Shown here: positions 2,556 through 44,025 of the stretch, piece after piece
Position numbering within the stretch: position 1 is the stretch's first letter
Layout of the letters: each line of letters starts with the position of its first letter
Assembly (NCBI GenBank): GCA_903873915.1
Contig: CAIQQH010000009.1
Location: 1 to 52,430, forward strand
Direction: 5' to 3'
DNA: 52,430 bases
From: an uncultured Flavobacteriia bacterium
GTDB taxonomy: Bacteria > Bacteroidota > Bacteroidia > Flavobacteriales_D > Crocinitomicaceae
Made by a program: the position numbers and the translations under genes
Notes under the pieces: model-generated
What the model saw: only the letters and a program-made list of their open reading frames with translations
What the model was told of the DNA's origin: nothing
The model's database searches: none

Positions 2556-2970
2556 TAACGAGTACGTCGAAAAAAGTGCAGCCGATGAACAGATACCTAA
2601 GGCTGACAAAAAAGAGAAAAAGAAAAGTGATTCGGCAAAACCGAAAGGTCGCCCGAATGCTTTTGCTCAAATTCTCAATGGGGATTTTTTAACGCGCGAA
2701 TTCGTGTTGAACAATTTGAATTTCATCTTTTTTGTCATCTTCCTTCTGCTACTTATCGTTGGTAAAGGGTATTACGGCAAGCAACTGACGCGTGACGTTG
2801 ATGATGCTCAAAACCATTTGAACGAAGTGACTTCAGATTATGTGGAAGCTAAAGCTCGACTTGAAGAACAGACACGACGTTACAGGTTGGTTGAAAAACT
2901 TGAGCCTCGAGGAGTGAAAGAAACACAGCAGGAAACAAAGGTGATACGAATAAGAGAAAAGAACAAATGA
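2548..2970 (+). CDS. ftsL: FtsL-like division protein, Bacteroidetes type
   Basis: A 140-residue single-pass protein. It has a charged cytoplasmic N-terminus of about 55 residues rich in Lys and Asp, one membrane helix (FIFFVIFLLLLIVGKGYY, about residues 59-76), and a periplasmic heptad-like coiled coil to the end. It sits between rsmH and the division transpeptidase, where FtsL is found in nearly all bacteria. FtsL proteins are poorly conserved, so the call rests on topology, size and position. FtsL joins FtsB and FtsQ to activate FtsW and FtsI at the septum. It overlaps rsmH by 8 bases and ftsI by 4. The acidic and basic N-terminal extension is longer than in E. coli. Confidence 0.85.
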   Translation: MADNEYVEKSAADEQIPKADKKEKKKSDSAKPKGRPNAFAQILNGDFLTREFVLNNLNFIFFVIFLLLLIVGKGYYGKQLTRDVDDAQNHLNEVTSDYVEAKARLEEQTRRYRLVEKLEPRGVKETQQETKVIRIREKNK

Positions 2971-5057
2971 GTGAAAAACGACATGTTATTTTGCGTGCGT
3001 ATTTCGTATACGCTGGATTTGTTGTGCTCATGATTGCCGTGATTTTTCGCACGATTTCGATTCAATTTGAGGGGCGGTCAAATGTCTTCGCATCCTCTGA
3101 GGAGAAGATGCCTATTCGAAAATCTCCAAGGTATCCGCGAAGAGGTGAAATTCTTGACATCAACCTGACGCCTTTGGTGACATCGGTGTGCTACTACAAC
3201 ATTTATATGGATCCTACCGTGGTAAAGCAAGACATCTTCGATGAAAAACTTGCCGAGCTGTCTAATGGTTTAGCTAGAATTTATCCTGAAAAATCTGCAC
3301 GCGAATACCAGAATATGATCCGAAGCGCTCGTGCTCGAAATTCAAGATACCTGTTAATACATAAAAAGGCGAGTGGTGAAGAACGCGACGCGCTCAACAA
3401 ACTGCCCATTTTTGACTTGGGACGTTTAAAGGGGGGGATTATTGATAATGTAGAGGTTATCGTTCGGAAAAAACCGAATGGTGAATTGATGAGCCGCACT
3501 CTTGGATTTTACCGCAATGATGAAGTAAAGGTTGGGATTGAGGATGCGTACAATAAATACCTGAGTGGCGAGGAGGGAGAAGAGATCGAACAAAAGATTT
3601 CGACTGGATGGAAGAAAACCGGTCAAGTAGTAAAAGAGGCGGTCGAGGGGGCAGATATCGTCACATCGATTGATAAAGATATCCAAGAAGTGGCACATTC
3701 TGAATTGCTAACCCAATTGAAAACGGAAGGTGCGCGAAGTGGATGTGTGATTGTCATGGAGGTTAAAACGGGCTTCATTAAAGCGATATCTAATCTTACA
3801 GAAATGGAAGATGGTTCTTTTCGTGAAGATTACAATTATGCCATTGGTCACAAAGAAGTGCCCGGATCTACCTTCAAATTGGCGTCGTTAATGGCGGCAC
3901 TCGAAGACGGTTTGATCGATACTAAGGACAAGGTGAATGCGGTAGGTTCATACCGTTTTGGAGATAAAACATATACCGATGCCCACGGTGGACCTGGATG
4001 GATTACCATCGAACAAGCCTTTGAAAAATCATCGAATGTTATTACGAAAGTAATCACCAACGCTTACCGAAAAAATCCAATGAGTTTTTATGAACGTTTG
4101 GAGAGTTTTGGACTCACAAAACGAACAGGAATTGCACTGTCGGGCGAACCGAAACCTACGATGTACAAGCCGGGAACGGACCAATGGCATCCCCTGTCAT
4201 TGCCGTCTATGGCCATTGGCTATGAGGTGCAACAAACGCCACTTCAAACGCTTACTTTCTACAATTCTGTGGCAAACAATGGAACGATGGTGAAACCACA
4301 GTTGGTTTATCAAATCCGCCGCGGTGCTGAGGTCATTAAAACTTATAGTCCCTCAGTGCTCATTGAACAGGTCTGTTCAGACGAGACTCTTCGCAAGTTG
4401 AAAAAATGCTTGGAGGGAGTCATGCAAAAAGGAGGGACTGGTTCGCGCTTAACGTCTTCACAATTTACCATTGCAGGAAAAACGGGAACAGCAAAACTAC
4501 CAGGTAAGGACAAACGCTATGGCGCCAAAGGACAAGGTGATTTTCAAGCATCGTTTGTCGGATATTTCCCTGCAAATAAGCCAATTTATTCGTGCATTGT
4601 AGTGATTTCAGCGCCAACTAAAAATATTTACGGAGGAAAAGTTTCAGGGACTGTTTTTGCTGCCGTTGCCAATAAAGTATTCGCTTCAAACCTTCAGTAC
4701 CACAAGGCAATCAATGAAACGAAAAAACGTAAAGGTGGTGTTCCTTCAGCATTGAATGGAAATGTTCATGACCTGGCTCGCGTATACCGCATGTTGAAGG
4801 TGCCTTTTGCGGTTGCGGGAGAAGGAGAGTGGATGCTCGCAGGTAGAGGAAAATCAAAAGCTGTGCTTCGCTCAAGGAAATTTGTCAAAGGCTTGGTGCC
4901 AGACTTAACTGGAATGAGCGCTCGTGATGCTGTATATATGATTGAATCATTGGGAATGACCGCGCATGTCGTTGGATTTGGAAAGGTGACAAAGCAATCT
5001 ATTCCTGTTGGTCGCCCAGTGTATCGAGGAGGTGTAATTGAATTGATTTTGAACTGA
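2967..5057 (+). CDS. ftsI: Penicillin-binding protein, class B septal transpeptidase (FtsI/PBP3) with C-terminal PASTA domain
   Basis: A 696-residue class B penicillin-binding protein that cross-links septal peptidoglycan. An N-terminal membrane anchor (about residues 9-28) leads to the pedestal region starting RYPRRGEILD. The transpeptidase domain carries the SxxK motif PGSTFK (Ser301, Lys304), the SxN motif SSN (355-357) and KTG (505-507). The last 60 residues, with GLVPDLTGMSARDAVYMIES, form one PASTA repeat, so the architecture resembles SpoVD/PBP2x rather than E. coli PBP3. PASTA-tailed division PBPs are common in Bacteroidetes. It overlaps the ftsL-like gene by 4 bases and shares a TGATG stop/start with murE. 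Confidence 0.95.
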   Translation: MSEKRHVILRAYFVYAGFVVLMIAVIFRTISIQFEGRSNVFASSEEKMPIRKSPRYPRRGEILDINLTPLVTSVCYYNIYMDPTVVKQDIFDEKLAELSNGLARIYPEKSAREYQNMIRSARARNSRYLLIHKKASGEERDALNKLPIFDLGRLKGGIIDNVEVIVRKKPNGELMSRTLGFYRNDEVKVGIEDAYNKYLSGEEGEEIEQKISTGWKKTGQVVKEAVEGADIVTSIDKDIQEVAHSELLTQLKTEGARSGCVIVMEVKTGFIKAISNLTEMEDGSFREDYNYAIGHKEVPGSTFKLASLMAALEDGLIDTKDKVNAVGSYRFGDKTYTDAHGGPGWITIEQAFEKSSNVITKVITNAYRKNPMSFYERLESFGLTKRTGIALSGEPKPTMYKPGTDQWHPLSLPSMAIGYEVQQTPLQTLTFYNSVANNGTMVKPQLVYQIRRGAEVIKTYSPSVLIEQVCSDETLRKLKKCLEGVMQKGGTGSRLTSSQFTIAGKTGTAKLPGKDKRYGAKGQGDFQASFVGYFPANKPIYSCIVVISAPTKNIYGGKVSGTVFAAVANKVFASNLQYHKAINETKKRKGGVPSALNGNVHDLARVYRMLKVPFAVAGEGEWMLAGRGKSKAVLRSRKFVKGLVPDLTGMSARDAVYMIESLGMTAHVVGFGKVTKQSIPVGRPVYRGGVIELILN

Positions 5058-6520
5058 TGAGTAAAGAATTGGATATCATTTTGCAGCATGTCGCAGTGAA
5101 GAATCTGGTCGGTTCACGCCAAAGATCAGTTTCATCGCTTGTGTTCGATTCACGCAAAGCGATTGCGGGAACTGCATTTTTTGCCATTCGTGGAGCAGCG
5201 ACCGATGGTCATCAATTTATTGAAGCTGTGATTGCTCAAGGCTGTGACCTTGTTTTCTCGGAAGAGCCAATCAGCGCTCCACATTCTATAACAGTTGTTG
5301 TGGTCGAAAGCACAAAAGAAGCCTTGGCAATCGCTGCGAACAATTTTTACGATGAACCTTCAAAGCACATCACGTTGGTGGGTGTGACGGGTACAAATGG
5401 AAAGACAACAACGACGACCTTGTTATTCAATCTTTACACGGGGCTTGGTTTTCATTGTGGTCTGCTTTCAACGGTTGTAAATAAAATTGGAGCACGAGAA
5501 ATTCCTTCAACTCACACAACACCTGACCCGGTTTCCTTGAATGCCCTTCTCGCTGAAATGGTAGAAGACGGTTGTAGCCACTGTTTTATGGAAGTGAGCT
5601 CTCACGCGATTCACCAACAGAGAATCACTGGTCTTCACTTCGCAGGTGCTGTGTTTACAAATATCACACACGATCACCTCGATTACCACAAGACCTTCGC
5701 TGAATATATTCGTGTGAAAAAAGCATGGTTCGATCACCTGGATAGTAAGGCCTTTGCATTGACAAATGTGGACGATAAAAATGGACTGGTCATGCTGCAA
5801 AATACAGCCGCTAGAAAATTTAACTATGCGTTGAAATCACCTGCAGACTTCAAAGTCAAGGTCTTGGAAAATCAGTTTTCAGGCTTGGTACTTCAACTCA
5901 ATGGTGTAGAGGTATGGACAAGATTAATAGGTGATTTTAATGCGTACAACCTCTTGGCGGTATATGCTGTGAGTCAGCTGCTTGGTGAGGATTCAGATGA
6001 GGTGATGACAGCATTGAGTGCGCTGGAATCTGTGGAAGGACGTTTTGAGTATGTGGTAAGCAACGCGGGTGTCACAGCCATTGTTGATTATGCACATACA
6101 CCAGATGCCCTAGAGAATGTATTGAAAACCATTGGAAATATTCGCACGGGCAATGAAATGGTGTTCACTGTTGTGGGTTGTGGCGGAGATCGTGACCGGG
6201 AGAAACGACCAAAAATGGCGGCCATAGCGTGTGAGTTGAGCAATAAAGTAATTCTTACTTCAGACAATCCGCGCTCAGAAAATCCAGATGCTATTCTGGC
6301 CGAAATGATGACTGGCGTTGAAGGTCAGCACTTTAAAAAAACACTGTCCATTACAGACCGATTGCAAGCCATTAAAACGGCGGTATCGATGGCAGAAAAA
6401 GGTGACATCATCTTGATCGCTGGAAAAGGTCATGAGAAATACCAAGAAATCAACGGAGTCAAGCATGATTTCGATGACATGCAAACAGTAAAAAACATTT
6501 TTAACCAATTCGATAAGTAA
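5057..6520 (+). CDS. murE: UDP-N-acetylmuramoyl-L-alanyl-D-glutamate--2,6-diaminopimelate ligase
   Basis: MurE adds the third amino acid to the UDP-MurNAc peptide in the cytoplasm, using ATP. It is 487 residues long, the normal size. The ATP-binding loop [12 protein letters not shown] begins near residue 110. The substrate-selecting motif DNPR is at residues 403-406; that motif marks enzymes specific for meso-diaminopimelate rather than lysine, so a DAP-type peptidoglycan is expected. HTTPDP and the [12 protein letters not shown] segment are also family features. The start codon overlaps the ftsI stop and the stop overlaps the mraY ATG, so all three are probably translationally coupled. Confidence 0.97.
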
Positions 6521-7764
6521 TGCTGTATTATCTTTTTGATTACCTCGACAAATTCAATTTTCCTGGCGCAGGATTGTTTGATTTTATTTCCTTTCGTGCG
6601 GCAATGGCCTTAATTACCTCACTCATTGTATCCGTGTTCTTTGGGAAAAGAATCATCAATCGTTTGCGCAAACAGCAAATTGGTGAAACCGTTAGAGATT
6701 TGGGCTTGGCAGGACAAATTGAAAAGTCTGGAACCCCAACCATGGGTGGACTAATTATTCTTGCAGCGATTCTTATTCCAACCATTCTCTTCGCCAAACT
6801 TCACAATATTTATGTCATCACCATGATTCTAGCGACCATCTGGCTCGGTGCCATTGGGTTTTTGGACGATTACATTAAAGTATTTAGAAAAAACAAAGAT
6901 GGGCTTGCTGGAAAATCAAAAGTCGTCGGTCAAATTGGTGTTGGGTTAATTGTTGGATGCATTCTTTACTTCTCGGGTGATGTGCGTGTGCACAAGCGCG
7001 TGGACAAGGATTACAAACTTCAAGCTGAAGAGGAGTTTGTTACCCATGAGCATACCAATTCAGGAGATGAGGAATACAAGTGGATCAAAACGGATGACAT
7101 GACTACCACGATTCCCTTTATCAAAGGCAATGAATTCAATTACAACTGGCTTATCGGCGACTCCAACAAATCTTATGGGTGGCTGCTCTTCATTCCTATT
7201 GTCATCTTTATTGTCATCGCTGTGTCCAATGGGGCGAATATGACGGATGGATTGGATGGATTGGCAACGGGAACATCCGCAATCATAGGTTTGGCATTGG
7301 CTGTACTCGCCTATGTCAGTTCGAATGCGAAATTCGCCGATTACCTCGATGTGATGTACATACCACTCGCGGAGGAACTCGTCATCTTCATCGCCGCATT
7401 TGTAGGGGCCTGTATTGGATTCTTATGGTACAATGCCTATCCAGCTCAAGTATTTATGGGAGATACAGGAAGTTTGGCCCTCGGAGGGATTATCGCAGTA
7501 TTTGCCATTTCCATCCGCAAAGAATTATTAATTCCCGTGCTGTGTGGAGTCTTTCTCATTGAAAATTTATCAGTCGTGCTGCAGGTGGGCTACTTCAAGT
7601 TTACAAAAAGGCGTTTTGGGGAAGGCAGGCGCATCTTCCTCATGGCACCATTACACCACCACTATCAAAAAGTAGGGCTTCATGAAGCCAAGATTGTCGC
7701 GCGCTTTTGGATCGTTGGCGTGCTCCTCGCTGTAATTACCATAGTCACATTAAAACTCCGCTAG
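6520..7764 (+). CDS. mraY: Phospho-N-acetylmuramoyl-pentapeptide-transferase
   Basis: MraY transfers phospho-MurNAc-pentapeptide to undecaprenyl phosphate, giving lipid I at the inner membrane. Many hydrophobic segments are visible, with the family motifs [15 protein letters not shown] (Asp116, Asp117), [12 protein letters not shown] (240-251) and the late APLHHHYQK. At 414 residues it is about 55 longer than the E. coli enzyme. The extra length is a polar loop after LYFSGDV (about residues 157-210) that also occurs in other Bacteroidetes MraY proteins. Its TAG stop is followed at once by the murD start. Confidence 0.97.
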
Positions 7765-9108
7765 TTGAACGGAACAAACCGACATATTGCCATTTTGGGC
7801 GCTGGCGAAAGCGGCGTTGGTGCTGCATTCCTTGCTAAAAAACAAGGCTGGGATGTATTCGTGTCGGATGCAGGTGTGATCAAGGACTCCTTTAAAAAAG
7901 AGTTGAATGACCTTGCTGTACAATGGGAAGAAAATGGCCATTCTGAAGAGCGCATTCTCGCTGTGGAACTGGTGATTAAATCTCCCGGAATACCCGAAAA
8001 AGCTCCTTTGATTAAAAAGCTGCGCGAGCGGGGGGTGAAGATCATTTCTGAAATTGAATTTGGAGCTTACTACAACACAGCAAAAACCATTTGCATTACA
8101 GGAAGCAACGGAAAGACGACCACAACGATGCTCACGCACCACATTCTTAAAAAAGCGGGCATTCGGGTTGGACTTGCAGGCAATGTAGGAGCAAGTTTCG
8201 CTAAACAAGTTGCAGAGGAAGTATTCGACTGGTATGTATTGGAGTTGAGTTCATTTCAATTGGATGACATGTACGATTTCCGCGCTGACATCGCCATCAT
8301 CACAAACATCACACCCGATCATTTGGATCGGTACAATTACGAGATGCAGAACTACACCAATGCTAAATTTCGCATCCTTCAAAATCAAACAAAAACCGAT
8401 TGGTTCATTTACAATGCCGATGATCCCATCATTTCAAAAGAAGTAGCACAACGTAAAATCGTGGCCCAGCAAGCTGCATTTTCTCTAACAACTCCGCAAA
8501 AAGTGGGAGGATATATAAACAAGCAACAACTAACAATCAACATAAAAGACCAATTCACCATGTCAATTCACGATTTAGCACTAAAAGGGAAACACAACTC
8601 CCAAAATTCGCTTGCCTCAGGGGTAGCAGCGAGGATTCTAGAAATCCGTAAAGAAATTGTACGCGAAAGTTTGGAGGACTTCGTAAATGTGGAACATCGT
8701 CTCGAATTTGTAGCGAAAGTACACGGCATCGAGTTCGTCAATGATTCGAAAGCAACCAATGTCAATTCGACATGGTTCGCCTTAGAAAGCATGGAAAATC
8801 CAACGGTATGGATCGTCGGTGGGGTAGATAAAGGAAATGATTATTCCCAATTGATAGACCTCGTAAAGGAAAAAGTAAAAGCCATCATCTGCCTTGGTGT
8901 AGACAACAAAAAGCTCATTGAAACTTTTTCGGGAGTTGTAGATAGCATCGTAGAGGCACGTTCTGCTATGGAAGCCGTTGCCTATGGGTATCGTATTGCC
9001 AAAAAGGATGAAACGGTTTTGCTTTCACCTGCTTGTGCTTCGTTCGATCTTTTCGAGAATTACGAAGACCGAGGAAATCAGTTCAAAGAAGCGGTGCGCT
9101 CACTTTAA
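7765..9108 (+). CDS. murD: UDP-N-acetylmuramoyl-L-alanine--D-glutamate ligase
   Basis: MurD adds D-glutamate to UDP-MurNAc-L-Ala. The 447-residue protein opens with the nucleotide-binding HIAILGAGESGVGAAFLA, has the ATP loop TGSNGKTTT at residues 112-120, then ELSSFQLDD, NITPDHLDRY and VNDSKATN, and ends with the C-terminal Rossmann-like domain SPACASFDLFENYEDRG. The start is a TTG at 7765-7767, directly after the mraY stop. No ATG lies early enough to keep the glycine-rich first strand, so TTG is the best choice. The next gene looks like a partial copy of its last domain. Confidence 0.96.
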   Translation: MNGTNRHIAILGAGESGVGAAFLAKKQGWDVFVSDAGVIKDSFKKELNDLAVQWEENGHSEERILAVELVIKSPGIPEKAPLIKKLRERGVKIISEIEFGAYYNTAKTICITGSNGKTTTTMLTHHILKKAGIRVGLAGNVGASFAKQVAEEVFDWYVLELSSFQLDDMYDFRADIAIITNITPDHLDRYNYEMQNYTNAKFRILQNQTKTDWFIYNADDPIISKEVAQRKIVAQQAAFSLTTPQKVGGYINKQQLTINIKDQFTMSIHDLALKGKHNSQNSLASGVAARILEIRKEIVRESLEDFVNVEHRLEFVAKVHGIEFVNDSKATNVNSTWFALESMENPTVWIVGGVDKGNDYSQLIDLVKEKVKAIICLGVDNKKLIETFSGVVDSIVEARSAMEAVAYGYRIAKKDETVLLSPACASFDLFENYEDRGNQFKEAVRSL

Positions 9109-9120
9109 AAAAGTAAAGTA

Positions 9121-9597
9121 ATGGAAAAACAAAGGACAATCTCTGCGGAAGAGCTGCTTTTGGGCGCTCGCAAAGAAAGCTTGAGTAGAATCAACCAATC
9201 GTCATTGCGTTCGCACGGAAAGCTTTGGGGCATGGATGTGTTTTCCTGGATCCATCCAAACATGTCAACCATTGGAACAACAATCAACTCTTTTCCTTCT
9301 TCTGTTAGATGGGTGGGTAATGCGCATGATTTGACTTCTGTATTGGAATCGCAACCGGAACTAATACATAAACTATCAGCAGCATTGATGTTTGACAATT
9401 CCATTTTTACATTGAAAAATGAACACCTGCTAGGCATTGAAAATTGTGTCGGAACAACAAGTGTGGAGGAAGCCCTAAGAATGACGAAAATCGCCGCTAA
9501 ACCACAGTCTGTTTTATTGTTTACGGCGTCAGGAGAAAATGCCGAGGATGCAAAAAATGAGTTTGAACGCACATTGAACCTGCTGCAAGGCAAATGA
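9121..9597 (+). CDS. Uncharacterised dcw-operon protein resembling a lone Mur ligase C-terminal domain
   Basis: A 158-residue soluble protein with no signal peptide or membrane segment and no name I can assign. Residues about 84-157 line up by eye with the last 75 residues of the MurD encoded just before it. LSAALMFDN matches VKAIICLGVDN, VEEALRMTKIAA matches AMEAVAYGYRIAK, SVLLFTASGENAEDAKNEFE matches the MurD VLLSPACASFDLFENYE stretch, and both end in a short helix. The P-loop domain of Mur ligases is absent, so it cannot be a ligase by itself. It lies in the operon 12 bases after murD and overlaps ftsW by 4. A role as a partner or regulator of MurD or FtsW is speculation. Confidence 0.8.
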   Translation: MEKQRTISAEELLLGARKESLSRINQSSLRSHGKLWGMDVFSWIHPNMSTIGTTINSFPSSVRWVGNAHDLTSVLESQPELIHKLSAALMFDNSIFTLKNEHLLGIENCVGTTSVEEALRMTKIAAKPQSVLLFTASGENAEDAKNEFERTLNLLQGK

Positions 9598-10772
9598 TAG
9601 AGTACCTAAAATACCTCAAAGGCGACCGCGTGATTTGGATAATTACGCTGCTGATGCTCTCCTTCTCGTTGGTGAGTGTCTATAGTTTTGTGCCCATTCT
9701 CGTGAAAATTGAAGGAGGCACACCGTTTAAATACCTTTTTAAGCATTTTTTATATGTGGTCATCGGTTTCGTCATCATGTTTGTGATTCATCGTCGCGAT
9801 CCAAAATATATCGCTCAGCTGTCTAAGTTTGCATTTTACTTGGCCATAGCGCTGATGATTTTTACGTTGCTTTTCCCAACTAAGGTGAACGGCGCAGGAC
9901 GATGGATAAAGATTCCATTCGTGGGCTTGACCTTTCAATCATCCGATTTTGCGAAGTTGGCTCTGTTGATTTATCTTTCTCGTATGTTGGTTAAAAAACA
10001 AGAGCTCCTCCACAAATGGCGAGGCGGATTTTGGCCTGTATTGTTGCCGGTGATAGGCATTTGTGGATTGATCTTGAAAGATAATTTCTCAACGGCTGCC
10101 ATTGTGTTTGTGATTTCGTTAACGGTGATGTTTATCGGAAAAGTACCATTGACGAAATTGTTTACAGTTGTTGGAGGGTTTATCGCAGCGGGATTTCTTT
10201 TGGTGATGTTGCACTTGGCTGCGCCCGACCTAGGTATTCTTCCGCGCTTCGATACTTGGAAAAATAGGGTGCTCAATAAAATGGAAAACGATACCGATGT
10301 TTTAGCAAATGCGCAGTCTCTGAATGCTGAACTTGCCATCTATCATGGCAGTATCTTTGGTCAAGGTGTGGGCGATGGTAAATTAAAGGAGTACCTGCCT
10401 GAGGCCTATGCCGATTTCTATTATGCAAGTTTTGTTGAAGAATTTGGATCCATTTCTGCGATATTCTTGGTGTTGCTTTATTTGATTTTACTCTACCGAA
10501 TTATTCGAATAGCACTGAAAACAGACCGACTCTTCGAGACCTATGCCTGTATTTCCATAGGAGTCTTACTTCTCACTCAAGCATCGGTAAATATGCTCGT
10601 TTGTACGGGTATTTTTCCAGTTACTGGCCAAAACATGCCGCTACTTGCCATGGGTGGCTCGGCACTCATCATGACCTGTGTTGCCATAGGTATCGTTCAG
10701 AGCATCGCTAGTCGTTTGGACATGGAAACAGAAAATGAAACAAAGTCTGAAAATAATCTCTCGGCAGCATGA
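9594..10772 (+). CDS. ftsW: Peptidoglycan glycosyltransferase FtsW (SEDS family)
   Basis: FtsW polymerises lipid II into glycan strands at the septum together with the PBP encoded by ftsI. The 392-residue protein has about ten membrane helices. SEDS hallmarks are visible: GAGRWIKIPFVGLTFQSSDFAKLALLIYLSR, the long periplasmic loop with QSLNAELAIYHGSIFGQGVGDG and LPEAYADFYYASFVEEFG, and the late TGIFPVTGQNMPLLAMGGSA. Placement between murD and murG is the classic dcw order and favours FtsW over RodA. It overlaps the preceding gene and murG by 4 bases each. Confidence 0.95.
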   Translation: MIEYLKYLKGDRVIWIITLLMLSFSLVSVYSFVPILVKIEGGTPFKYLFKHFLYVVIGFVIMFVIHRRDPKYIAQLSKFAFYLAIALMIFTLLFPTKVNGAGRWIKIPFVGLTFQSSDFAKLALLIYLSRMLVKKQELLHKWRGGFWPVLLPVIGICGLILKDNFSTAAIVFVISLTVMFIGKVPLTKLFTVVGGFIAAGFLLVMLHLAAPDLGILPRFDTWKNRVLNKMENDTDVLANAQSLNAELAIYHGSIFGQGVGDGKLKEYLPEAYADFYYASFVEEFGSISAIFLVLLYLILLYRIIRIALKTDRLFETYACISIGVLLLTQASVNMLVCTGIFPVTGQNMPLLAMGGSALIMTCVAIGIVQSIASRLDMETENETKSENNLSAA

Positions 10773-11875
10773 GTGTGAATCGAGTGGTGATCTCAGGTGG
10801 CGGCACAGGTGGACATATATTTCCTGCCGTGGCCATCGCAGATGAAATAAAAAGACGTAATCCCAATGCGGAGATACTTTTCGTTGGTGCATTGGGCAAA
10901 ATGGAAATGGAGAAGGTGCCTGCTGCAGGGTATAAAATTATTGGACTTCCGATCGCTGGGTTTCAACGTAAATTGACATTTTCAAATTTTCTTCTTCCCT
11001 TTAAAATTCTTGGCAGTCTGTTAAAGGCACGCAAGCTCCTAAAATCATTTAAACCAGAAGTGGTTATTGGTGTTGGGGGATACGCGAGTGGACCAACCTT
11101 GCAGGCAGCAACGTATTTGAAAATTCCAACACTGATTCAAGAGCAAAATGGTTTTCCGGGAAAAACCAATAAACTGCTCGCAAAATCAGTGAACTCGATC
11201 TGTACAGCCTACGATGGACTTGAACGATTTTTTCCAAAAGAAAAAATCTTGTTGACGGGAAACCCCGTACGAAAAGAAATGGTAGAGATTGCCAACAAAC
11301 GCGAGGAAGCCTGCGAATTTTATGGCATGGATTCTACCAAACCAATTGTGCTCATCATAGGAGGCAGTCTTGGCGCACGGACATTAAACCGGTCCGTTGT
11401 TCATGCCTACGAAGAATTGAGAAATTCTGGCATTCAGGTGCTCTGGCAATCGGGTAAATTGTACTACAGTGACTTGAAAAATGAACTGACGCAAGGCGCC
11501 GCAGAGAATATTCATCTCGTTGAGTTTATCGAGCGCATGGACTTTGCCTATGCGATGGCCGACATTATTGTATCGCGCGCAGGTGCAATTTCTGTTTCAG
11601 AGTTATGCATCATCGGTAAGCCCGTGATCTTGGTGCCTTCGCCAAATGTAGCTGAAGACCATCAAACAAAAAACGCGATGGCGCTGGTTGAAAAAAACGC
11701 AGCAATCTTGGTCAAAGATATCGATGCACCGTCTCAGTTAATAACCAATACATTGCAACTTTTGAAGGATAAGGATCAATGTGATTCTTTATCAAAAGCT
11801 ATACATTCCCTTGGAAAACCAAACGCAACCGGCGCAATCGTCGATGAAGTTGAACGCATTTTAAGCATGAAATGA
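10769..11875 (+). CDS. murG: UDP-N-acetylglucosamine--N-acetylmuramyl-(pentapeptide) pyrophosphoryl-undecaprenol N-acetylglucosamine transferase
   Basis: MurG adds GlcNAc to lipid I to make lipid II on the inner face of the membrane. The 368-residue protein is a GT-B fold enzyme. The N-terminal glycine loop GGGTGGHIFPA is at residues 10-20, GVGGYASGP follows, and the C-terminal nucleotide-binding part holds LIIGGSLGA, the VEFIERMDFAYAMADIIVSRAGA helix and PSPNVAEDHQTKNA. Length is typical. It overlaps ftsW and murC by 4 bases each. Confidence 0.97.
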   Translation: MSVNRVVISGGGTGGHIFPAVAIADEIKRRNPNAEILFVGALGKMEMEKVPAAGYKIIGLPIAGFQRKLTFSNFLLPFKILGSLLKARKLLKSFKPEVVIGVGGYASGPTLQAATYLKIPTLIQEQNGFPGKTNKLLAKSVNSICTAYDGLERFFPKEKILLTGNPVRKEMVEIANKREEACEFYGMDSTKPIVLIIGGSLGARTLNRSVVHAYEELRNSGIQVLWQSGKLYYSDLKNELTQGAAENIHLVEFIERMDFAYAMADIIVSRAGAISVSELCIIGKPVILVPSPNVAEDHQTKNAMALVEKNAAILVKDIDAPSQLITNTLQLLKDKDQCDSLSKAIHSLGKPNATGAIVDEVERILSMK

Positions 11876-13245
11876 AGTCCATTGTAAATCCCATCGAAGT
11901 GTTTAAACGTGCGTACTTTATTGGCATCGGTGGGATTGGAATGTCCGCACTTGCGCGCTATTTTAAGCGACAAGGATGGGAAGTTTCAGGATACGATAAA
12001 ACACCATCTTCACTGACCGATGCGCTTCAAGAGGAAGGTATTGCTGTTCATTTTTCTGATGTAGGCGATGACATACAAGCTGCGTTTAAGTCCAAGGCAG
12101 ATACATTGGTCATTTATACTCCCGCCATCAAGAAATTGGGGGAATTGTCTTATTTTAAGAATGAAGGATTTCAGGTTCACAAGCGATCAGAAGTTCTTGG
12201 AATGCTCACTCGCTCATCGCTTGGATTGGGTGTAGCGGGCACGCACGGAAAAACAACAACGAGCGCCTTATTGGCTTACATATTGGATTCATCAGAGTTG
12301 AAATGCTCTGCCTTTCTCGGTGGAATAGCGACAAATTTCGACTCCAATTTGGTCATCAGCACCACGAGCAAATACACCGTCGTGGAAGCAGATGAATTTG
12401 ACCGATCATTTCTCGCTTTGAGTCCATTTGCTTCGATCATTACCTCTGTCGACCCTGACCATTTGGACATTTATGGAGATGTCGATTATTTTAAACAAGG
12501 GTTTCAGAGTTACGCAGAATTGATTCATCTTGAGGGATTTGTCATCATGAAGGAGGGCCTGCCCTTGGAACCAAAAGCGAGAATCATAAGCTATGCCGTG
12601 GCATCTGAAACGGCTGATGTTTCCGTTGAACAGATGCACTTTGAAAATGGCTACTTCACTTTTGATGTGCGTATTCGTGAAGAAAATTGGAAAGGAGTGC
12701 AGTTGGGCATTCCAGGTATACACAATGCAGAAAACGCCGCAGCATGCATCGCGATGTGCTTGGAATTGGGAGTAAAAGAAACTCTTATTCGTGAAGCGTT
12801 GAAGACATTTAAAGGGGTAAAAAGAAGATTTGAATACCACATTCGAAAAGAAAATCTGGTGTATATTGACGACTACGCTCACCACCCGACAGAACTTCAT
12901 TCTTTCCTTAGTTCCGTGCGCTTGATGTATCCTGGTAAACGCGTAATTGGCGCATTTCAACCGCATCTTTTTACACGAACGCGCGACTTCTTTGAGGGGT
13001 TTGCACATGAACTTTCCGCACTGGATGAACTTGTCCTCTTGCCCATTTATCCAGCGAGAGAACAGCCCATTGAAGGGGTAAGTAGTGAACATCTATTGGC
13101 AGCGATAAAGGCACCAAAAAAACAGGTTTTAGCTGCTGAAGAAGCACTCCATTATTTGTCGTTGCAAAATGATTGTGTGATTCTAACTATCGGTGCAGGA
13201 GACATTGATCGAATCGTTGAACCATTAACAAAGGCATTGTCATGA
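11872..13245 (+). CDS. murC: UDP-N-acetylmuramate--L-alanine ligase
   Basis: MurC attaches L-alanine to UDP-MurNAc, the first step of stem peptide assembly. The 457-residue protein starts with a Rossmann loop (YFIGIGGIGMSALA), carries the ATP loop GTHGKTTTSA from residue 123, and shows VVEADEFDRSF, DPDHLDIYGD, KRRFEY, DDYAHHPTE and FQPHLFTRT. All are standard MurC features. It overlaps murG and ftsQ by 4 bases each, so the cluster is tightly packed here. Confidence 0.97.
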   Translation: MKSIVNPIEVFKRAYFIGIGGIGMSALARYFKRQGWEVSGYDKTPSSLTDALQEEGIAVHFSDVGDDIQAAFKSKADTLVIYTPAIKKLGELSYFKNEGFQVHKRSEVLGMLTRSSLGLGVAGTHGKTTTSALLAYILDSSELKCSAFLGGIATNFDSNLVISTTSKYTVVEADEFDRSFLALSPFASIITSVDPDHLDIYGDVDYFKQGFQSYAELIHLEGFVIMKEGLPLEPKARIISYAVASETADVSVEQMHFENGYFTFDVRIREENWKGVQLGIPGIHNAENAAACIAMCLELGVKETLIREALKTFKGVKRRFEYHIRKENLVYIDDYAHHPTELHSFLSSVRLMYPGKRVIGAFQPHLFTRTRDFFEGFAHELSALDELVLLPIYPAREQPIEGVSSEHLLAAIKAPKKQVLAAEEALHYLSLQNDCVILTIGAGDIDRIVEPLTKALS

Positions 13246-14069
13246 GAATTTGGATAAAACGAATCGTTTGGGTATTGTTTTTTGTGGGTGTCATTGTGCT
13301 TGTGGTGCGTTCGTGCAATGTGCACAGTACGCGCTCGATGGACAAGCCAAAAATTGTTATTCACGTCAAAGGTGAGGATGCATTTTTGACCGAAGATGAG
13401 TTGTATGAGCGCTTGAAACGAAAAGGGCTAATCTATGAAGGTCAAACACATAAAACCTTGAAAACGTCTGTCATTGAGCGCTATATTTCTGCCATGTCAG
13501 AGATCAAGGATGTTCGGGTGTTTACGCGCATCGGAAGTTCATGGACGATAGAAGTTACCGTGAGAAAGCCAATCGCAAGAATCTACAATCAATACCATGA
13601 AACATTTTACTTGGATGAGGATGGAATTGTAGTACAAACATCGGGTTTACATACTGCGCGGGTGGTTGTTGTAACTGGTTTGATTCCAGATAGAATAACA
13701 TCCATCTCCGTAAAAGAAATTATTAACAACGATTCCTTGAAAAGTATTCGAAAGCTTGATGATGTGTATCGAATTTCGAATTATGTTTGCAATGATCCCG
13801 AATTGCAAGCGCTTATTGGACAAATTCACTTGAAAAAGAATGGTGATTTCGTTCTAATTCCACTTGTTGGTGATCAACTCATCGTATTTGGTTCTGCGTT
13901 TTCAGACCGGGAAGTGAGGGATAAATTTGAAAAATTAAAGATTTTTTATACGAAGGGCTTGCCATACGAAGGCTGGGAGAAATACTCAGAAATTAATTTG
14001 AAGTATGGTGGTCAAATCGTTGGCAAGATCAAAGAAGGATACAAGAACGGTAACGAAGAAAACGAATAA
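13242..14069 (+). CDS. ftsQ: Cell division protein FtsQ
   Basis: A 275-residue bitopic protein. A short basic N-terminus leads to one membrane helix (about residues 5-23, VWVLFFVGVIVLVVRSC), then a periplasmic region with a POTRA-like part (about 33-110, including VRVFTRIGSSWTIEVTVRKP) and the beta domain with FYLDEDGIVVQTS. Sequence identity in FtsQ is always low. Topology, size and the place between murC and ftsA support the call. FtsQ bridges FtsL/FtsB and early divisome proteins. It overlaps murC by 4 bases. Confidence 0.9.
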   Translation: MRIWIKRIVWVLFFVGVIVLVVRSCNVHSTRSMDKPKIVIHVKGEDAFLTEDELYERLKRKGLIYEGQTHKTLKTSVIERYISAMSEIKDVRVFTRIGSSWTIEVTVRKPIARIYNQYHETFYLDEDGIVVQTSGLHTARVVVVTGLIPDRITSISVKEIINNDSLKSIRKLDDVYRISNYVCNDPELQALIGQIHLKKNGDFVLIPLVGDQLIVFGSAFSDREVRDKFEKLKIFYTKGLPYEGWEKYSEINLKYGGQIVGKIKEGYKNGNEENE

Positions 14070-14080
14070 ATAATAGATCA

Positions 14081-15361
14081 ATGGTTATTGTAGGATTGGA
14101 TATAGGAACGACGAAAATTGCATGTTTCGTTGGGAGGAGGAATGAGCATGGCAAAATTGAGATTTTGTCAATGGGGAAGAGCGAGTCCTTAGGGGTAATG
14201 CGTGGGATTGTAGCGAATATCGATAAAACAATTCAATCCATTCAAGCAGCAGTCAATGAGACACAGGGTCGTGTCGATGGGTCCTTGGTGATTCGTTCAG
14301 TGAACGTAGGCATCGCAGGTCAACACATCAAAAGCTTGCAGCACCGTGGAATTCATACACGCAAGCAAATTGACAGTGAAATTTCCCAGAAGGATGTTGA
14401 CGTGTTGATTGAGGACATGTACAAATTGGTGATGCAGCCTGGTGAAGAAATCATTACCGTATTGCCGCAGGAATATATCGTAGACAACGAGCAAGGAATT
14501 AAGGATCCAATTGGAATGTCAGGTCGTCGGCTTGAGGCCAATTTCCACATTATTACAGGGCATGTAGGTGCCGTGTTGAATATCCACAAATGTGTGGAGC
14601 GTTCTGGTTTAGAGGTCAAAGAAATTATCCTTGAACCCATTGCCTCTGCAGATGCGGTGCTTTCTGAAGAAGAAAAAGAAGCAGGTGTCGTATTGGTGGA
14701 CATAGGCGGTGGAACCACAGATGTAGCCATTTTCCATGAGGGAATTATCCGGCATACTGCCGTGATCCCATTTGGTGGAAATGTCATCACAGACGACATC
14801 AAGGAGGGATGCACCATCATGCGTCGCCAAGCTGAATCCTTGAAAGTAAAATTTGGATCTGCTTTGGCTTCACAGAGCCAAGAAAATGAAGTGGTTTGTA
14901 TTCCAGGTTTGAAGGGTAGAGATCCAAAGGAAATTACAGTGAAGAATTTGGCGAGCATCATTCAAGCGCGCATGGAGGAGATCATTGAAATGGTTCAAAT
15001 CGAAATCGTGAATAGCGGCTATTCGAAGAAGCTAATCGCTGGAATAGTAGTAACTGGTGGTGGGTCGCAATTGAAGCACATTACGCAATTGTTTGAATAC
15101 ATGAGCGGAATGGATACACGCATCGGTTATCCAACAGAACACTTAGCAAATACCAACCACATTGAAAATTTGACGAGCCCAATGTTTGCTACAGGTATCG
15201 GTCTTGTGTTGAAAGGATTTGAGAAGTTGGATGCACAAACCGAACAGCCGGAAGTGGCAAGCCCCGGTCAAGTGAAAGGCCATTCAACGAAAACGCGTGG
15301 ATCATTTTTCGATGAATTGATCAAACGAGGACAGAAGTTCTTTTCAGATAGTGAAGATTAA
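14081..15361 (+). CDS. ftsA: Cell division protein FtsA
   Basis: FtsA is the actin-like protein that tethers FtsZ filaments to the membrane and recruits later divisome proteins. The 426-residue product has the phosphate-1 loop VGLDIGTTKIACFVG at the N-terminus, the phosphate-2 loop VVLVDIGGGTTDVAIF, and the adenosine motif GIVVTGGGSQLKHI. The last residues, FFDELIKRGQKFFSD, can form an amphipathic helix, as in the FtsA membrane-targeting tail. It starts 11 bases after ftsQ, with ftsZ 24 bases downstream. Confidence 0.97.
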   Translation: MVIVGLDIGTTKIACFVGRRNEHGKIEILSMGKSESLGVMRGIVANIDKTIQSIQAAVNETQGRVDGSLVIRSVNVGIAGQHIKSLQHRGIHTRKQIDSEISQKDVDVLIEDMYKLVMQPGEEIITVLPQEYIVDNEQGIKDPIGMSGRRLEANFHIITGHVGAVLNIHKCVERSGLEVKEIILEPIASADAVLSEEEKEAGVVLVDIGGGTTDVAIFHEGIIRHTAVIPFGGNVITDDIKEGCTIMRRQAESLKVKFGSALASQSQENEVVCIPGLKGRDPKEITVKNLASIIQARMEEIIEMVQIEIVNSGYSKKLIAGIVVTGGGSQLKHITQLFEYMSGMDTRIGYPTEHLANTNHIENLTSPMFATGIGLVLKGFEKLDAQTEQPEVASPGQVKGHSTKTRGSFFDELIKRGQKFFSDSED

Positions 15362-15385
15362 TAACAACAATACAATATAGAAATT

Positions 15386-16990
15386 ATGGAATTCGATTTA
15401 CCAAAAGAGACAAGTTCAATCATTAAAGTGATTGGTGTAGGTGGCGGCGGAAGCAACGCGGTAAACCACATGTACAACCAAGGAATCATTGGTGTAGATT
15501 TTATCGTGTGTAACACAGACCGTCAGGCATTGGATATCTCTCCGGTTCCATTGAAAATTCAACTCGGACCCTCATTGACAGAAGGACGTGGTGCTGGATC
15601 TTTGCCAGAAATTGGTAAAAATGCAGCCATCGAAAACATCGATGAAATTCGTGAATTGCTAGGCAAGAATACGAAAATGGTCTTCATCACCGCTGGAATG
15701 GGTGGTGGAACAGGTACAGGTGCTGCTCCAGTGATTGCTGAGGTAGCAAGAGAAATGAACATCCTTACCGTGGGAATCGTAACTGTACCATTCAACTTTG
15801 AAGGAAGAAAACGCCGTCAACAAGCTGAAGAAGGATTGGAAAGTATGCGTCAAAATGTAGATACACTTTTAGTGATCAACAATGAGCGCCTTCGTGAAAT
15901 CACAGGTAACTTGACGATTTCTAATGCGTTCTCGCAAGCAGATGACGTGCTTACAATTGCAGCGAAAGGGATTGCAGAGGTGATTTCTGTTACAGGCTCT
16001 ATGAATGTGGACTTTAACGATGTGAACACGGTTATGCGCAACAGCGGACGCGCCATCATGGGTAGCGCTTCAGCAGAAGGTGAAAATCGCGCTGTAAATG
16101 CAGTGCAACAAGCCTTGGCTTCACCATTATTGAATGACAACGACATTAGCGGTGCACAGTATGTCTTATTGAACATCACGTATGGCAATAAAGAAGTCTT
16201 GATGGATGAAATCACAGAGATCACCGATTTTATCCAAGACGAAGCTGGTTCAACTGCCGATGTGATTTGGGGACATGGATTTGATCCATCTCTAGGAGAT
16301 AAATTAAGCGTTACATTGATTGCCACTGGTTTCAAGTCAAATCACCCAATCTCGGGTTTTGAGAAAGCTCCGGAGAGAACAGTAGTTACACTCGACCTGG
16401 AGCAGAAAAATGAAATCAAAGAACAACTTTCTTCGCCAACGCAATCTACACCATTCATCAATGCAGTAGAAGTAAAGGCGCCAATCGAAGAGCCGTTCAT
16501 GAAATCTGAACCGAAACAAGATTCGGTGCAAGATGAATCGATTGCCTCTGTTAGCCCAAGCATAGAACTTCCTATTTCAAAAATAGAAGAAGCTCCTGTT
16601 GAAAAACAAGAGTCCTTGGAATTGAGTTGGCAGATTCAAGATGTTCAATCTGAACAAAAGAAGGATTCCGTAATCGTTCACCATTTGGAAGACGATAGCC
16701 AAGTAAAAATGGAATTGGAGAATCAATCAACACGAGCCGTCCTTTCTCCGGAAGAACAACAGCGTAAAACACAAGAGCGCATGTCACGCATTCAAGACTT
16801 GACCATTAAATTAAAAAAGTCTGAAGGCATTGCTGAATTCGAAAATGAACCAGCCTATGTGCGTCGCAATATTCAGTTGGACAATTCTAAACCAAGCACT
16901 GAAGAAACATTTAGCCGCTTTGGATTGGCTGAGGAAGACAACAAAGGTGTCTTGAGAAGCAATAATTTCTTACATGATAATGTGGACTGA
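15386..16990 (+). CDS. ftsZ: Cell division protein FtsZ
   Basis: FtsZ is the tubulin-like GTPase that forms the Z ring. The GTP-binding domain has [13 protein letters not shown], the tubulin signature GGGTGTG at residues 106-112, and NNERLREI and NFEGRKRR nearby. At 534 residues it is well above the roughly 380 of E. coli. The surplus is a long acidic, Glu-, Ser- and Gln-rich linker from about residue 330, followed by a conserved-looking PAYVRRNI peptide near residue 490 and about 40 further residues. Bacteroidetes FtsZ proteins often have such tails. The PAYVRRNI stretch probably corresponds to the conserved C-terminal peptide that binds FtsA. Confidence 0.97.
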
Positions 16991-17433
16991 TGAGCTTTAC
17001 AGAACGCATAAATGGTGACATAAAATCGGCAATGCTTGCTAGGGAAAAAGAACGCCTTGCCGTATTGCGTGACATCAAGTCAAAGCTATTGTTGGAAGCA
17101 ACATCAGGTTCAGGCGAAGCCTCTGAAGAAGTCGCACTAAAAATCTGCATGAAGTTGCACAAACAGCGCTTGGAAACGTACGAATTGTATACCGCCCAAG
17201 GTCGTCAAGATTTAGCGGATGAAGAATTGTTTCAAGCAAAAGTAATCGAAGAATACCTGCCTAAAATGATGTCGGAGGAAGAGATCCGCGCGGAAGTTTC
17301 CGCAGCAATCGCTCAAACTGGCGCCACAGGTCCCCAAGAAATGGGGAAGGTCATGGGGGTTTTAACGGGTAAATTGGCGGGTAAAGCCGATGGTAAACTC
17401 ATCGCAACTCTTGTGAAAGAAGCACTTTCTTAA
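16990..17433 (+). CDS. GatB/YqeY domain-containing protein
   Basis: A 147-residue helical protein of the YqeY family, related to the C-terminal domain of the amidotransferase subunit GatB. Family features are [33 protein letters not shown] at the start, the middle YLPKMMSEEEI, and MGKVMGVLTGKLAGKADGKLI near the end. The molecular role is not established; a link to tRNA-dependent reactions is inferred from the GatB relationship. Its ATG overlaps the ftsZ TGA. It is the last gene of the operon, followed by an intrinsic terminator. Co-transcription with ftsZ is common in Bacteroidetes. Confidence 0.93.
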   Translation: MSFTERINGDIKSAMLAREKERLAVLRDIKSKLLLEATSGSGEASEEVALKICMKLHKQRLETYELYTAQGRQDLADEELFQAKVIEEYLPKMMSEEEIRAEVSAAIAQTGATGPQEMGKVMGVLTGKLAGKADGKLIATLVKEALS

Positions 17434-18120: not shown

Positions 18121-18185
18121 TAAGACAAGAGACAAGAGACAAGAGACAAAAGACAAAGGACAAAAGACATGATCTTACTTCGGAG
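18121..18185 (+). repeat. Heptamer array GACAARR with edge motif (copy 1 of the mosaic repeat family)
   Basis: From 18125 seven units follow in a strict 7-base period: GACAAGA three times, GACAAAA, GACAAAG, GACAAAA, GACATGA. They run into TCTTACTTCGGA. The array starts 9 bases after the mtnB stop. The same pieces recur at six other places in the window. Confidence 0.85.
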
Positions 18186-18199
18186 TATCGAATCATTTC

Positions 18200-18254
18200 C
18201 CCCGCTAGAGTGCTTGTCCCGCAAGGAACGATGCGGGAGGGATCAAGGGGGAGG
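18200..18254. repeat. C-rich/G-rich intergenic hairpin repeat
   Basis: CCCCCGC at the left pairs with GGGGG at the right. Inside, TGTCCCGCAAGGAACG and ATGCGGGAGGGAT form a second stem (CCCGC/GCGGG). The inner part is the reverse complement of 45615-45645, and a simpler relative lies at 34875-34903. Confidence 0.7.
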
Positions 18255-18258
18255 ATTG

Positions 18259-18332
18259 TAGATATTAGGATATCAAGATTTTAAGATGTTAAGACAAGAG
18301 ACAAGAGACAAAGGACATGATCTTACTTCGGA
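18259..18332 (+). repeat. Octamer plus heptamer array with edge motif (copy 2)
   Basis: Octamer units of the form ATNTYAAG (ATATTAGG, ATATCAAG, ATTTTAAG, ATGTTAAG) lead into heptamers GACAAGA, GACAAGA, GACAAAG, GACATGA (18293-18320), then TCTTACTTCGGA. The right edge is the same as in copy 1. Confidence 0.85.
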
Positions 18333-23716: not shown

Positions 23717-23765
23717 AAAGGGACAAAGGGACAAAGGGACAAAGGACGTCAAGATATTAAGACAT
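23717..23765 (+). repeat. GGGACAAA heptamer/octamer array (mosaic repeat family)
   Basis: GGGACAAA is repeated three times, followed by GGACGTCAAGATATTAAGACATT, a merger of the heptamer and octamer modules seen at 18121-18332. It lies between the divergent glycosyltransferase and YfhO-like genes. Confidence 0.75.
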
Positions 23766-29572: not shown

Positions 29573-29668
29573 GAAATGAAGAATTAAAAATGAAGAATGA
29601 ACAATGAAATCCTTCTTCGCTTTTGAACTTCGATGGACAAAAGACAAAGGACAAAAGATGAGGAAAAA
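29573..29668 (+). repeat. AT-rich GAAGAATTAAAAAT repeat plus heptamer repeat
   Basis: GAAGAATTAAAAATGAAGAA (29578-29597) is followed by CCTTCTTCGCTTTTGAACTT, CGATGG and heptamers GACAAAA, GACAAAG, GACAAAA. The AT-rich part occurs on the opposite strand at 34913-34965. An ATG in the heptamers (29633) precedes the next gene in frame but is not its likely start. Confidence 0.7.
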
Positions 29669-30082
29669 ATGAAGAATGTCATCACTTTAAGCACTGAAGT
29701 GCGTGGTTCAATAAAAAGTGTTTGGGAATTGTGGACATCCCCAGAGCACATTGTCCATTGGAATTTTGCTGCCGACAGTTGGCACGCTCCAGCCGCAGTG
29801 AATGACCTACAAGTTGGCGGGAAATTCTCTTACCGCATGGAAGCCAAAGATGGAAGTGTGGGTTTTGATTTTTCGGGGGTGTATTCAGAAATCATCGAAC
29901 ACGAAGTAATTGCGTATACCATGGATGATGGACGGAAAGCACGCGTAACATTTGAAGCCCTTGGTGAGTCCATAGTTGTCACTGAAGTATTTGAGCCAGA
30001 AACGATGAATGCGCATGAGCTTCAACAAACGGGCTGGCAAATGATTTTAGATAACTTCAAGTGTCACGCTGAGTCGCTTTAG
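29669..30082 (+). CDS. SRPBCC (AHSA1-type) domain protein
   Basis: A 137-residue protein of the Bet v1-like SRPBCC fold. Characteristic pieces are VRGSIKSVWELWTSPEHIVHWNF, WHAPAAVNDLQVGGKFSYRMEAKDG, FDFSGVYSEIIEHEVIAYTMDDGRKARVTFE and the C-terminal helix QTGWQMILDNFKCHAESL. These proteins bind hydrophobic ligands or Hsp90-like partners; the ligand here is unknown. I started at the ATG at 29669. The upstream in-frame ATG at 29633 lies in the heptamer repeat and would add twelve residues (MDKRQRTKDEEK) coded by it. Confidence 0.85.
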   Translation: MKNVITLSTEVRGSIKSVWELWTSPEHIVHWNFAADSWHAPAAVNDLQVGGKFSYRMEAKDGSVGFDFSGVYSEIIEHEVIAYTMDDGRKARVTFEALGESIVVTEVFEPETMNAHELQQTGWQMILDNFKCHAESL

Positions 30083-34048: not shown

Positions 34049-34582
34049 ATGAACAGGAAGTTAAAATTGTGGGAATTGGATCGGGTGAGTGAGGAAGATT
34101 TTCGCGCTCAACAGAAGTTTCCATTGATTGTCATCTTGGATGATATCCGAAGTCTAAATAACATCGGTTCGTTCTTTCGAACGGCGGATGCCTTTAATGT
34201 GGAAAAGATTTATCTGTGCGGTATTACCGCCAATCCTCCGCACCGCGATATTCAGAAAACAGCCCTCGGCGCCACGGAAACAATAGCATGGGAATACCGA
34301 AAGTCAATTACGGAGCTTGTTGCCGAATTAAAAGAACAAGGAGTGGTTGTTTGCACCATTGAGCAAGCGGAGAAGACTGTCCATTTGCAACATGTGGGCG
34401 ATTTACCTGGGGAACGATTTGCGCTTGTCTTTGGCAACGAAGTCGATGGGGTAAATCAAGCCGTGATTGACATGACCGACCACGTCATCGAAATCCCTCA
34501 GTTCGGAACAAAACACAGTTTAAATGTGTCGGTTTGTGCGGGGGTGGTGTTGTGGGAGTTTGGGAAAAATTTTTTTGTTTAG
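34049..34582 (+). CDS. SpoU/TrmH-family RNA 2'-O-methyltransferase
   Basis: A 177-residue SPOUT methyltransferase. The three family motifs are visible: LDDIRSLNNIGSFFRTADAF (motif 1, about residues 30-49), FALVFGNEVDGVNQ (motif 2) and IEIPQFGTKHSLNVSVCAGVVLWEF (motif 3, forming the knot that binds SAM). There is no N-terminal L7Ae-like domain, so it resembles short TrmH/TrmL-like enzymes that modify tRNA. The exact target is unknown. The frame is open upstream to 33905, but the ATG at 34049 gives the family-like start and clears the divergent mutS. Confidence 0.9.
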   Translation: MNRKLKLWELDRVSEEDFRAQQKFPLIVILDDIRSLNNIGSFFRTADAFNVEKIYLCGITANPPHRDIQKTALGATETIAWEYRKSITELVAELKEQGVVVCTIEQAEKTVHLQHVGDLPGERFALVFGNEVDGVNQAVIDMTDHVIEIPQFGTKHSLNVSVCAGVVLWEFGKNFFV

Positions 34583-34620
34583 ATATTAAGATGTTAGGAT
34601 TTTAAGATGTCAAGACAAGG
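34582..34620 (+). repeat. Octamer array leading into the 36-bp repeat
   Basis: ATATTAAG, ATGTTAGG, ATTTTAAG, ATGTCAAG and ACAAGG repeat with an 8-base period, starting right at the stop of the RNA methyltransferase gene. The same octamers occur at 18259-18292 and, inverted, in the 113-bp units. Confidence 0.8.
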
Positions 34621-34792: not shown

Positions 34793-34874
34793 GTAAAGAA
34801 ACGGACATTAAGAGATCAGGAGATTCAGATTTTAAGACATTTTCCCGGAATATAACGAACGCAATGATTTGTTT

Positions 34875-34903: not shown

Positions 34904-34912
34904 GCCTTACAA

Positions 34913-44006: not shown

Positions 44007-44025
44007 GGGAGTGCGAATTTTATTT

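Follow-up and report, generated by a model that had tools for sequence, protein, structure and literature searches.

Among the short repeats of bacterial spacers, STRRs are tandem heptamer repeats of cyanobacteria. The same phylum reportedly also carries small dispersed repeats (SDRs), which Elhai is said to have described in 2008 as elements of 21-27 nt with a common hairpin shape and compensating changes, often situated within heptamer arrays and thought to be mobile. Heptanucleotide long simple sequence repeats (LSSRs) are intergenic tandem heptamers, commoner than repeats of other short periods, for which slippage has been proposed (Mrazek 2007, via the available part of PMC4679880). Intergenic arrays of the heptamer TAACTGA, accompanied by other heptamers and shorter in relatives, have been described in Bacteroidetes and Beggiatoaceae, with a suggested role in rearrangement (MacGregor 2015; available part of PMC4679880). 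That source already reports arrays of heptamer direct repeats between Bacteroidetes genes, which supersedes the view of the initial annotation that no such Bacteroidetes family was known. REPs are short imperfect extragenic palindromes carrying a GTAG or CGTC tag, described together with the Y1 genes of RAYTs in the accessible sections of PMC3733652, PMC6006769 and PMC3116915.

The window analysed here, i.e. the whole stretch of 52,430 nt of one contig, derives from assembly G000 (2,817,404 bases; 137 contigs; 87.5% complete). Repeat modules had been noted at seven intergenic places, and direct reading and pattern scans located them in all seven. In comparison with 100 dinucleotide shuffles of the window, the GACAARR tandems (GACAARRx2: 12 matches; shuffle mean: 0.01), the ATNTYAAG octamer (ATNTYAAGx2: 6 matches; shuffles: 0) and the CTTCTTCGC...GAGCTTCGAAG block are all more frequent than in their controls and are real repeats. 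The block had been interpreted as a shared edge motif, a reading which we dropped, as it stands alone as an imperfect palindrome and also recurs in 36-bp and 113-bp tandems. This 25-bp palindrome, here named HP25, accounts for 18 strand matches (9 sites) in the window and for none in the shuffles. The true right-hand edge word is TGATCnTACTTCG, found three times in the window and eight times in the genome. The features of the window are as follows:

18124-18165, plus strand: GACAARR heptamer run of 6 units, 7 bp past the stop codon of an aldolase-II gene
18170-18182, plus strand: edge word TGATCTTACTTCG, from the pattern scan
18260-18293, plus strand: octamer run of the ATNTYAAG type, from the pattern scan and shuffles
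18293-18313, plus strand: GACAARR heptamer run of 3 units, from the pattern scan and shuffles
18318-18330, plus strand: second copy of edge word TGATCTTACTTCG, from the pattern scan
23717-23745, plus strand: octamer run, 3.6 units of AAAGGGAC with period 8, from the repeat scan and direct reading
29610-29634, plus strand: decayed HP25 copy, read from the sequence
29636-29656, plus strand: GACAARR heptamer run of 3 units, where the start of an AHSA1-domain ORF (29633-30082) is called
34583-34614, plus strand: octamer run beginning at the base right after a stop codon
34614-34768, plus strand: 36-bp tandem of 4.3 copies with one HP25 each (34625-34649, 34661-34685, 34697-34721, 34733-34757)
34758-34771, plus strand: GACAARR heptamer run of 2 units, from the pattern scan and shuffles
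34776-34788, plus strand: edge word TGATCGTACTTCG, from the pattern scan
34911-34961, plus strand: AATTCTT heptamer run, a separate heptamer family, from the repeat scan
44026-44063, plus strand: GACAARR heptamer run with one variant unit, from the repeat and pattern scans
44066-44090, plus strand: single HP25 with loop TGT, absent at the orthologous place in relative G011
45969-45984, plus strand: GAGTTAC heptamer run, a separate heptamer family, from the repeat scan
46000-46404, minus strand: 113-bp tandem of 3.6 copies with octamers and mini-hairpins, from the repeat and pattern scans
46029-46053, 46142-46166, 46255-46279 and 46368-46392, minus strand: four HP25 copies in the 113-bp tandem, from the pattern scan
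46397-46410, minus strand: GACAARR heptamer run of 2 units, from the pattern scan and shuffles
48180-48385, minus strand: interrupted GACAARN heptamers without HP25; the hairpins present are a CCGCTGCGCT mini-hairpin at 48261-48270 and the longer CGTCAGCC...GGCTGAC form

One of the seven places, 23717-23745, is an octamer run of period eight and does not follow the 7-base phase originally ascribed to the heptamers. HP25 thus occurs in three settings, namely alone (44066-44090), in the 36-bp tandem and in the minus-strand 113-bp tandem. Further modules at the same places comprise CGCTGCGCT-type mini-hairpins, GTGGCT...AGCCAC hairpins and GARTTAC and AATTCTT heptamers, while array spacers also harbor the short palindromes CGCTTCGCT and CGCCTTCGGCTG. 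When the loci are read on a common strand, in G000 stretches picked for array content, module order is loose: octamers precede heptamers and/or hairpins, which precede edge word TGATCnTACTTCG, mostly on one strand per locus, with an exception at L044 (9042-9148), where octamers follow the heptamers. Within these array-selected stretches GAC lies at most 6 nt upstream of 28/35 HP25 and 20/29 CGCT[GT]CGCT copies (spacer background: 5.1%), of 3/3 and 4/4 copies of two rarer mini-hairpins and of 7/8 octamer blocks, and is weaker before edge words (3/5) and GTGGCT-type hairpins (3/7). The claim of a mosaic holds, but two things are combined in it, slippage-type heptamers and dispersed palindromes.

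Other repeats were observed in passing. A recurrent spacer palindrome of the CCCGCAAGGAACG-TGCGGGAGGGA type (CCCCC...GGGGG) was noted by eye at 18213-18256 and at loci L141-L144. A MITE-like element at 45715-45970 has 19-nt inverted ends (TCATTGTTGTCCGACTAAA; 89% complementary) with an extra left-end copy at 45401, and many contigs of the relatives carry matches to parts of 45328-46021.

Across the genome, GACAARRx3 gives 51 matches at 17 places, as grouped by eye, with none for the reversed pattern. The loose HP25 pattern has 76 matches per strand (reversed control: 0) and a stricter oriented pattern 71; as the nearly palindromic pattern matches 76 times on each strand, about 76 HP25 sites are indicated.

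The cyanobacterial heptamer repeats, to which the arrays had been likened from the outset, were judged the best comparison. As in heptanucleotide LSSRs and STRRs, these are 7-bp tandems above chance which lie mainly outside genes and vary in unit number between relatives; unlike those, they employ their own words (GACAARR, GARTTAC and AATTCTT), and a single spacer can combine these with octamers and hairpins. HP25 is similar to the SDRs in that a 25-bp core is dispersed at about 76 sites, forms a compensated hairpin and is embedded in heptamer arrays, but it belongs to another phylum, and the likeness is one of description. We know of no joining by GAC, nor of several hairpin types in one order, among the SDRs. 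The composites as a whole look like an other-phylum relative of the tiny cyanobacterial repeats. With the TAACTGA arrays, as presented in the available part of PMC4679880, they share the form of heptamer arrays in Bacteroidetes spacers, but have another sequence and, in addition, the dispersed hairpin. HP25 is furthermore like REPs in being a short imperfect palindrome with tens of extragenic copies and with Y1 genes in many host genomes, and unlike REPs and the REPtron in lacking a GTAG or CGTC tag, in standing singly or head-to-tail and in not flanking the Y1 gene. The one open-access library searched showed no account of HP25 or of modules joined by GAC, although absence there is not equivalent to absence from print.

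We consider that these loci are non-coding spacer composites of slippage-prone heptamer arrays and small dispersed hairpins, reshuffled by misalignment at repeated words, and place the probability of this reading at about one half. Each place combines short modules, most of them preceded by GAC. The heptamer and octamer runs differ in unit number between relatives, with units probably added and removed by slipped-strand replication. HP25 is a palindrome of about 25-31 bp, dispersed among spacers and multiplied in one subclade. Fork misalignment or template switching may occur at the repeated words flanking the hairpins. Hairpins and blocks with such words on both sides are seen to be lost, put together in another order or duplicated, the last as in the tandems of 36 and 113 bp, and misalignment or template switching is the probable cause of these outcomes. 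The composites would be tolerated where harm is least, in gene spacers and more frequently where two genes converge, and we infer that they are mainly neutral or selfish and carry no regulatory code. Slippage leaves the arrival of HP25 in many unrelated spacers unexplained.

That the modules arose by chance or from faulty assembly is highly improbable. The draft of 137 contigs, some of which end within arrays, agrees with an artefact, and exact unit numbers remain tentative. However, the shuffles, the absence of reversed-pattern matches and the recurrence of these modules in the orthologous spacers of four further assemblies speak against it and settle their existence. Neither are the arrays confined to the window, GACAARRx3 being found elsewhere in the assembly and in other genomes, nor do they match a family catalogued in Rfam, which identified only two tRNAs in the window and left 45290-46450 blank at E up to 1.

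Spacer turnover was followed in the relatives G004, G008, G011 and G016, whose long gene-bearing matches are 79-93% identical to G000. Spacer length agreed within 10 bp in 2/21 array-bearing versus 30/31 array-free comparisons (Fisher p: 5e-11), where array-free spacers of at least 40 bp were counted and some G000 spacers enter several rows, once per relative. HP25 number was equal in 8/19 comparisons and the longest heptamer run in 4/19; the relatives' loci outside the window were selected for HP25 content, while the window rows, not so selected, gave 2/8 for both. One relative locus, L131, is not among the HP25 contig matches listed. At 44010-44113, HP25 lies within the heptamer run in G000, G008 and G016, in the last two with base changes, while G011 has the run alone. 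Since G016, the most distant relative, has the hairpin, a precise loss from G011 explains this more simply. The octamer-heptamer-edge block after the stop codon at 34574-34953 is restricted to G000 and G008, and the four hairpins there to G000. Further spacers, placed side by side, show similar kinds of change, and some are alike.

The composites are concentrated outside genes. In G000 stretches, where spacers make up 11%, 54/57 HP25 or heptamer features and 19/20 heptamer runs of at least 3 units lie outside called ORFs, as do 97/104 features in the relatives' loci, where two of the ORFs containing the remaining seven are long (1312 and 451 codons). The ORF caller is a simple one that keeps the longest ORFs, rendering start sites uncertain. 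The initial annotation had placed the modules always between genes, and they are mainly intergenic; the run at 29636-29656, by contrast, overlaps the opening codons of a called ORF. The AHSA1 domain of this ORF begins at residue 26, so that translation probably starts downstream of the array. The dcw operon was correctly described as devoid of arrays, the stretch of about 1193-17433 holding single GACAARR words only; MurD and FtsZ therein were confirmed by Pfam, while the remainder of the operon follows the earlier naming. Pfam families of the array neighbours include aldolase II, ARD, topoisomerase, SpoU methylase and AIR synthase. Period-7 arrays lie outside genes 40 times and inside genes three times in four samples: other G000 contigs (3 in 286 kb outside; 1 inside), the window (5; 0), HP25-rich relatives (23 in 394 kb; 1) and HP25-free members of the genus (9 in 400 kb; 1), the last of which use other heptamers, such as AATGACT. 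The window is denser in such spacer arrays, with 5 in 52 kb versus 3 in the 286 kb of other G000 contigs, a sample in which contigs chosen by number were supplemented with five stretches that either came from contigs known to carry HP25 or were picked by hand.

HP25 can be written as CTTC-TTC-GCTC-nnn-GAGC-TTC-GAAG, with stem CTTC/GAAG, mismatch TTC/TTC, stem GCTC/GAGC and a three-base loop. Covariation was assessed in 121 distinct copies, all retrieved by a pattern in which TTCGCT-5-AGCTTCG is invariant; those that belong to tandems or to related genomes are non-independent. Stem pairs 20-24, 12-32, 9-35 and 8-36 exceed dealt-out letters (1000 shuffles; as high as observed in 4, 0, 2 and 0 of them) and pair 11-33 does so weakly (18 of 1000), while pairs 7-37 and beyond show no excess in this set. 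In a subset split off post hoc, 32 copies that have neither of the two common right flanks, pairing was 75% vs 45% at 9-35 and 78% vs 42% at 8-36. The HP25 stem is thus statistically shown to be kept by compensating changes, whereas the loop and outer stem vary. The longer-stem form folds well (DNA z: -4.17, -3.89; RNA z: -4.26, -5.42) and the common heptamer-flanked form weakly (DNA z: -0.83, -1.16; RNA z: -1.26, -2.15), and the heptamer run itself showed no fold in this test. By eye, none of the 121 copies ends in a GTAG or CGTC tag, the usual flanks being GACA and GGAC.

The kept stems could also reflect selection for function. The composites might be functional RNA parts, with gene-end hairpins that stop transcription or protect transcripts and heptamers that bind an RNA-binding protein, an explanation we regard as rather improbable. 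The co-varying stem pairs are in line with it, as is the placement of the 68 clusters with both neighbours called: convergent-gene spacers hold 24/68 of these versus 18% of spacer bases (p: 0.0007) and divergent-gene spacers 10/68 versus 27% (p: 0.03), the baseline shares deriving from G000 stretches mostly selected for arrays. Translational control has furthermore been proposed for the Beggiatoaceae heptamers (available part of PMC4679880). However, the clusters show no orientation rule relative to the upstream gene (co-oriented in 39/68; p: 0.27), the composites vary at orthologous spacers, 21/26 genus members are free of HP25, and the same flanking genes occur without it.

Among 60 genomes, GACAARRx3 is present in 10, namely 9/26 of the genus, G000 included, 1/11 of the rest of the family and 0/23 of other families; five genomes have at least 22 matches and the other five one or two. 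The same five rich genomes are the HP25-bearing members of the genus (5/26). Their MurD proteins share 92-95% identity with that of G000, versus at most 83% for other members, in a comparison to which G001, G007 and G021 contributed no true match. HP25 has thus multiplied in one subclade of five sister species. Order-wide, HP25 was found in at least 10/399 sampled genomes, the five beyond the rich set all belonging to genus g11, Fluviicola chungangensis included, with 1-3 copies each.

A REP-like HP25 may have been moved as a single-stranded hairpin by a RAYT-type Y1 (HUH) transposase, the heptamers being landing pads only, although we consider this unlikely. One Y1_Tnp gene (93-98 bits) occurs in 4/5 HP25-rich genomes, its product 83-94% identical to the G000 protein, compared with 34-37% identity for the Y1 proteins of five other members of the genus. 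The ortholog would accordingly be present in 4/5 rich versus 0/21 other genomes, the latter figure being based on five compared proteins and match scores. Heptamers adjoin the Y1 gene at 4/4 loci, and Bacteroidetes Y1 genes flanked by atypical hairpins have been reported (PMC6006769, accessible sections). However, the five rich genomes are mutual nearest relatives, so the link between HP25 and Y1 may reflect descent alone. G004 (91% complete) is HP25-rich yet without a Y1_Tnp match, which is conversely present in 13/21 HP25-free genus members (17/26 overall); in g11, the gene occurs in 3/5 HP25 carriers and 8/9 non-carriers, and it is absent from F. chungangensis (100% complete), which has HP25. 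In the flanks retrieved, HP25 lies beside 0/4 Y1 genes and the GTGGCT hairpin beside 2/4, the G000 flank being partly N, and HP25 shows no strand preference by GC skew (28 to 17; p: 0.14). An HP25-dedicated RAYT mobiliser, promising at 4/5, is weakened by G004, F. chungangensis, g11 and the lack of HP25 beside the gene, and is kept as a rival; a tie between the Y1 transposase and HP25 is unsupported by these data. Separately, Y1_Tnp genes of other genus members (L138, L140, L145 and L148) are, by eye, flanked by palindromes of their own (GTCCCTAAGGGAC, AACCCCTTCAGGGTT) in a REPtron-like manner.

The exact HP25 core extends to at least 87 contig stretches, which include, among the matches listed, Verrucomicrobiota, Omnitrophota and Patescibacteria records. 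Two Verrucomicrobiota records hold HP25 inside RNase P RNA genes (RF00010; 181.7 and 183.5 bits) at L082 2427-2451 and L088 7024-7048, and no shared flanks other than this common context of L082 and L088 were seen among the other-phylum matches listed, several of which lie inside called ORFs of at least 100 codons. Most other-phylum records are metagenome bins, so that contigs may be misbinned. A PF01797 match is present in 8/9 HP25-bearing genomes of other phyla, among the matches listed, which speaks for the Y1 transposase, although genes of this kind are frequent. The PF01797 survey as listed gave 20/26, or 19/23 with three doubled genomes (G066 = G184; G068 = G245; G069 = G397) merged, and the G000 Y1 protein as sole query matched in 2/13 genomes.

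In a search of 29 genomes for the TTCGCT-n-AGCTTCG palindrome, only the Omnitrophota genome G065 was clearly above control outside the five rich ones (25 vs 1). Weak excesses were seen in G064 (7 vs 2), G068 (5 vs 1) and G069 (7 vs 0), and the remaining genomes had 0-4 matches and controls of 0-7. With one clearly enriched outside genome, most distant copies are not expanded families. A general cross-phylum family was dropped in view of the near-control counts in most of the genomes, as was phage carriage of HP25, since no viral-contig stretch has the exact core. The palindromes of G065 (locus L098) perhaps form a family of their own.

The exact copies in other phyla stay outside the best explanation, that of slipping arrays and reshuffled hairpins. 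A bolder proposal is that HP25 is among the smallest mobile elements, at about 25-31 bp, driven by a putative host activity with heptamer arrays as landing pads in one Flavobacteriales subclade, and that it crossed to Verrucomicrobiota, Omnitrophota and Patescibacteria and entered RNase P RNA genes as well; this we hold to be doubtful.

The composites touch on why 7 bp is favoured in bacterial spacers and how hairpins without cargo spread. Five close species share a common vocabulary in differing arrangements at orthologous spacers, while their congeners use other heptamer words, and together they provide a natural series for counting unit gain, hairpin loss and module swapping. The occurrence of one 25-bp core in several phyla raises the question of whether it is a moving element or a shape favoured repeatedly.
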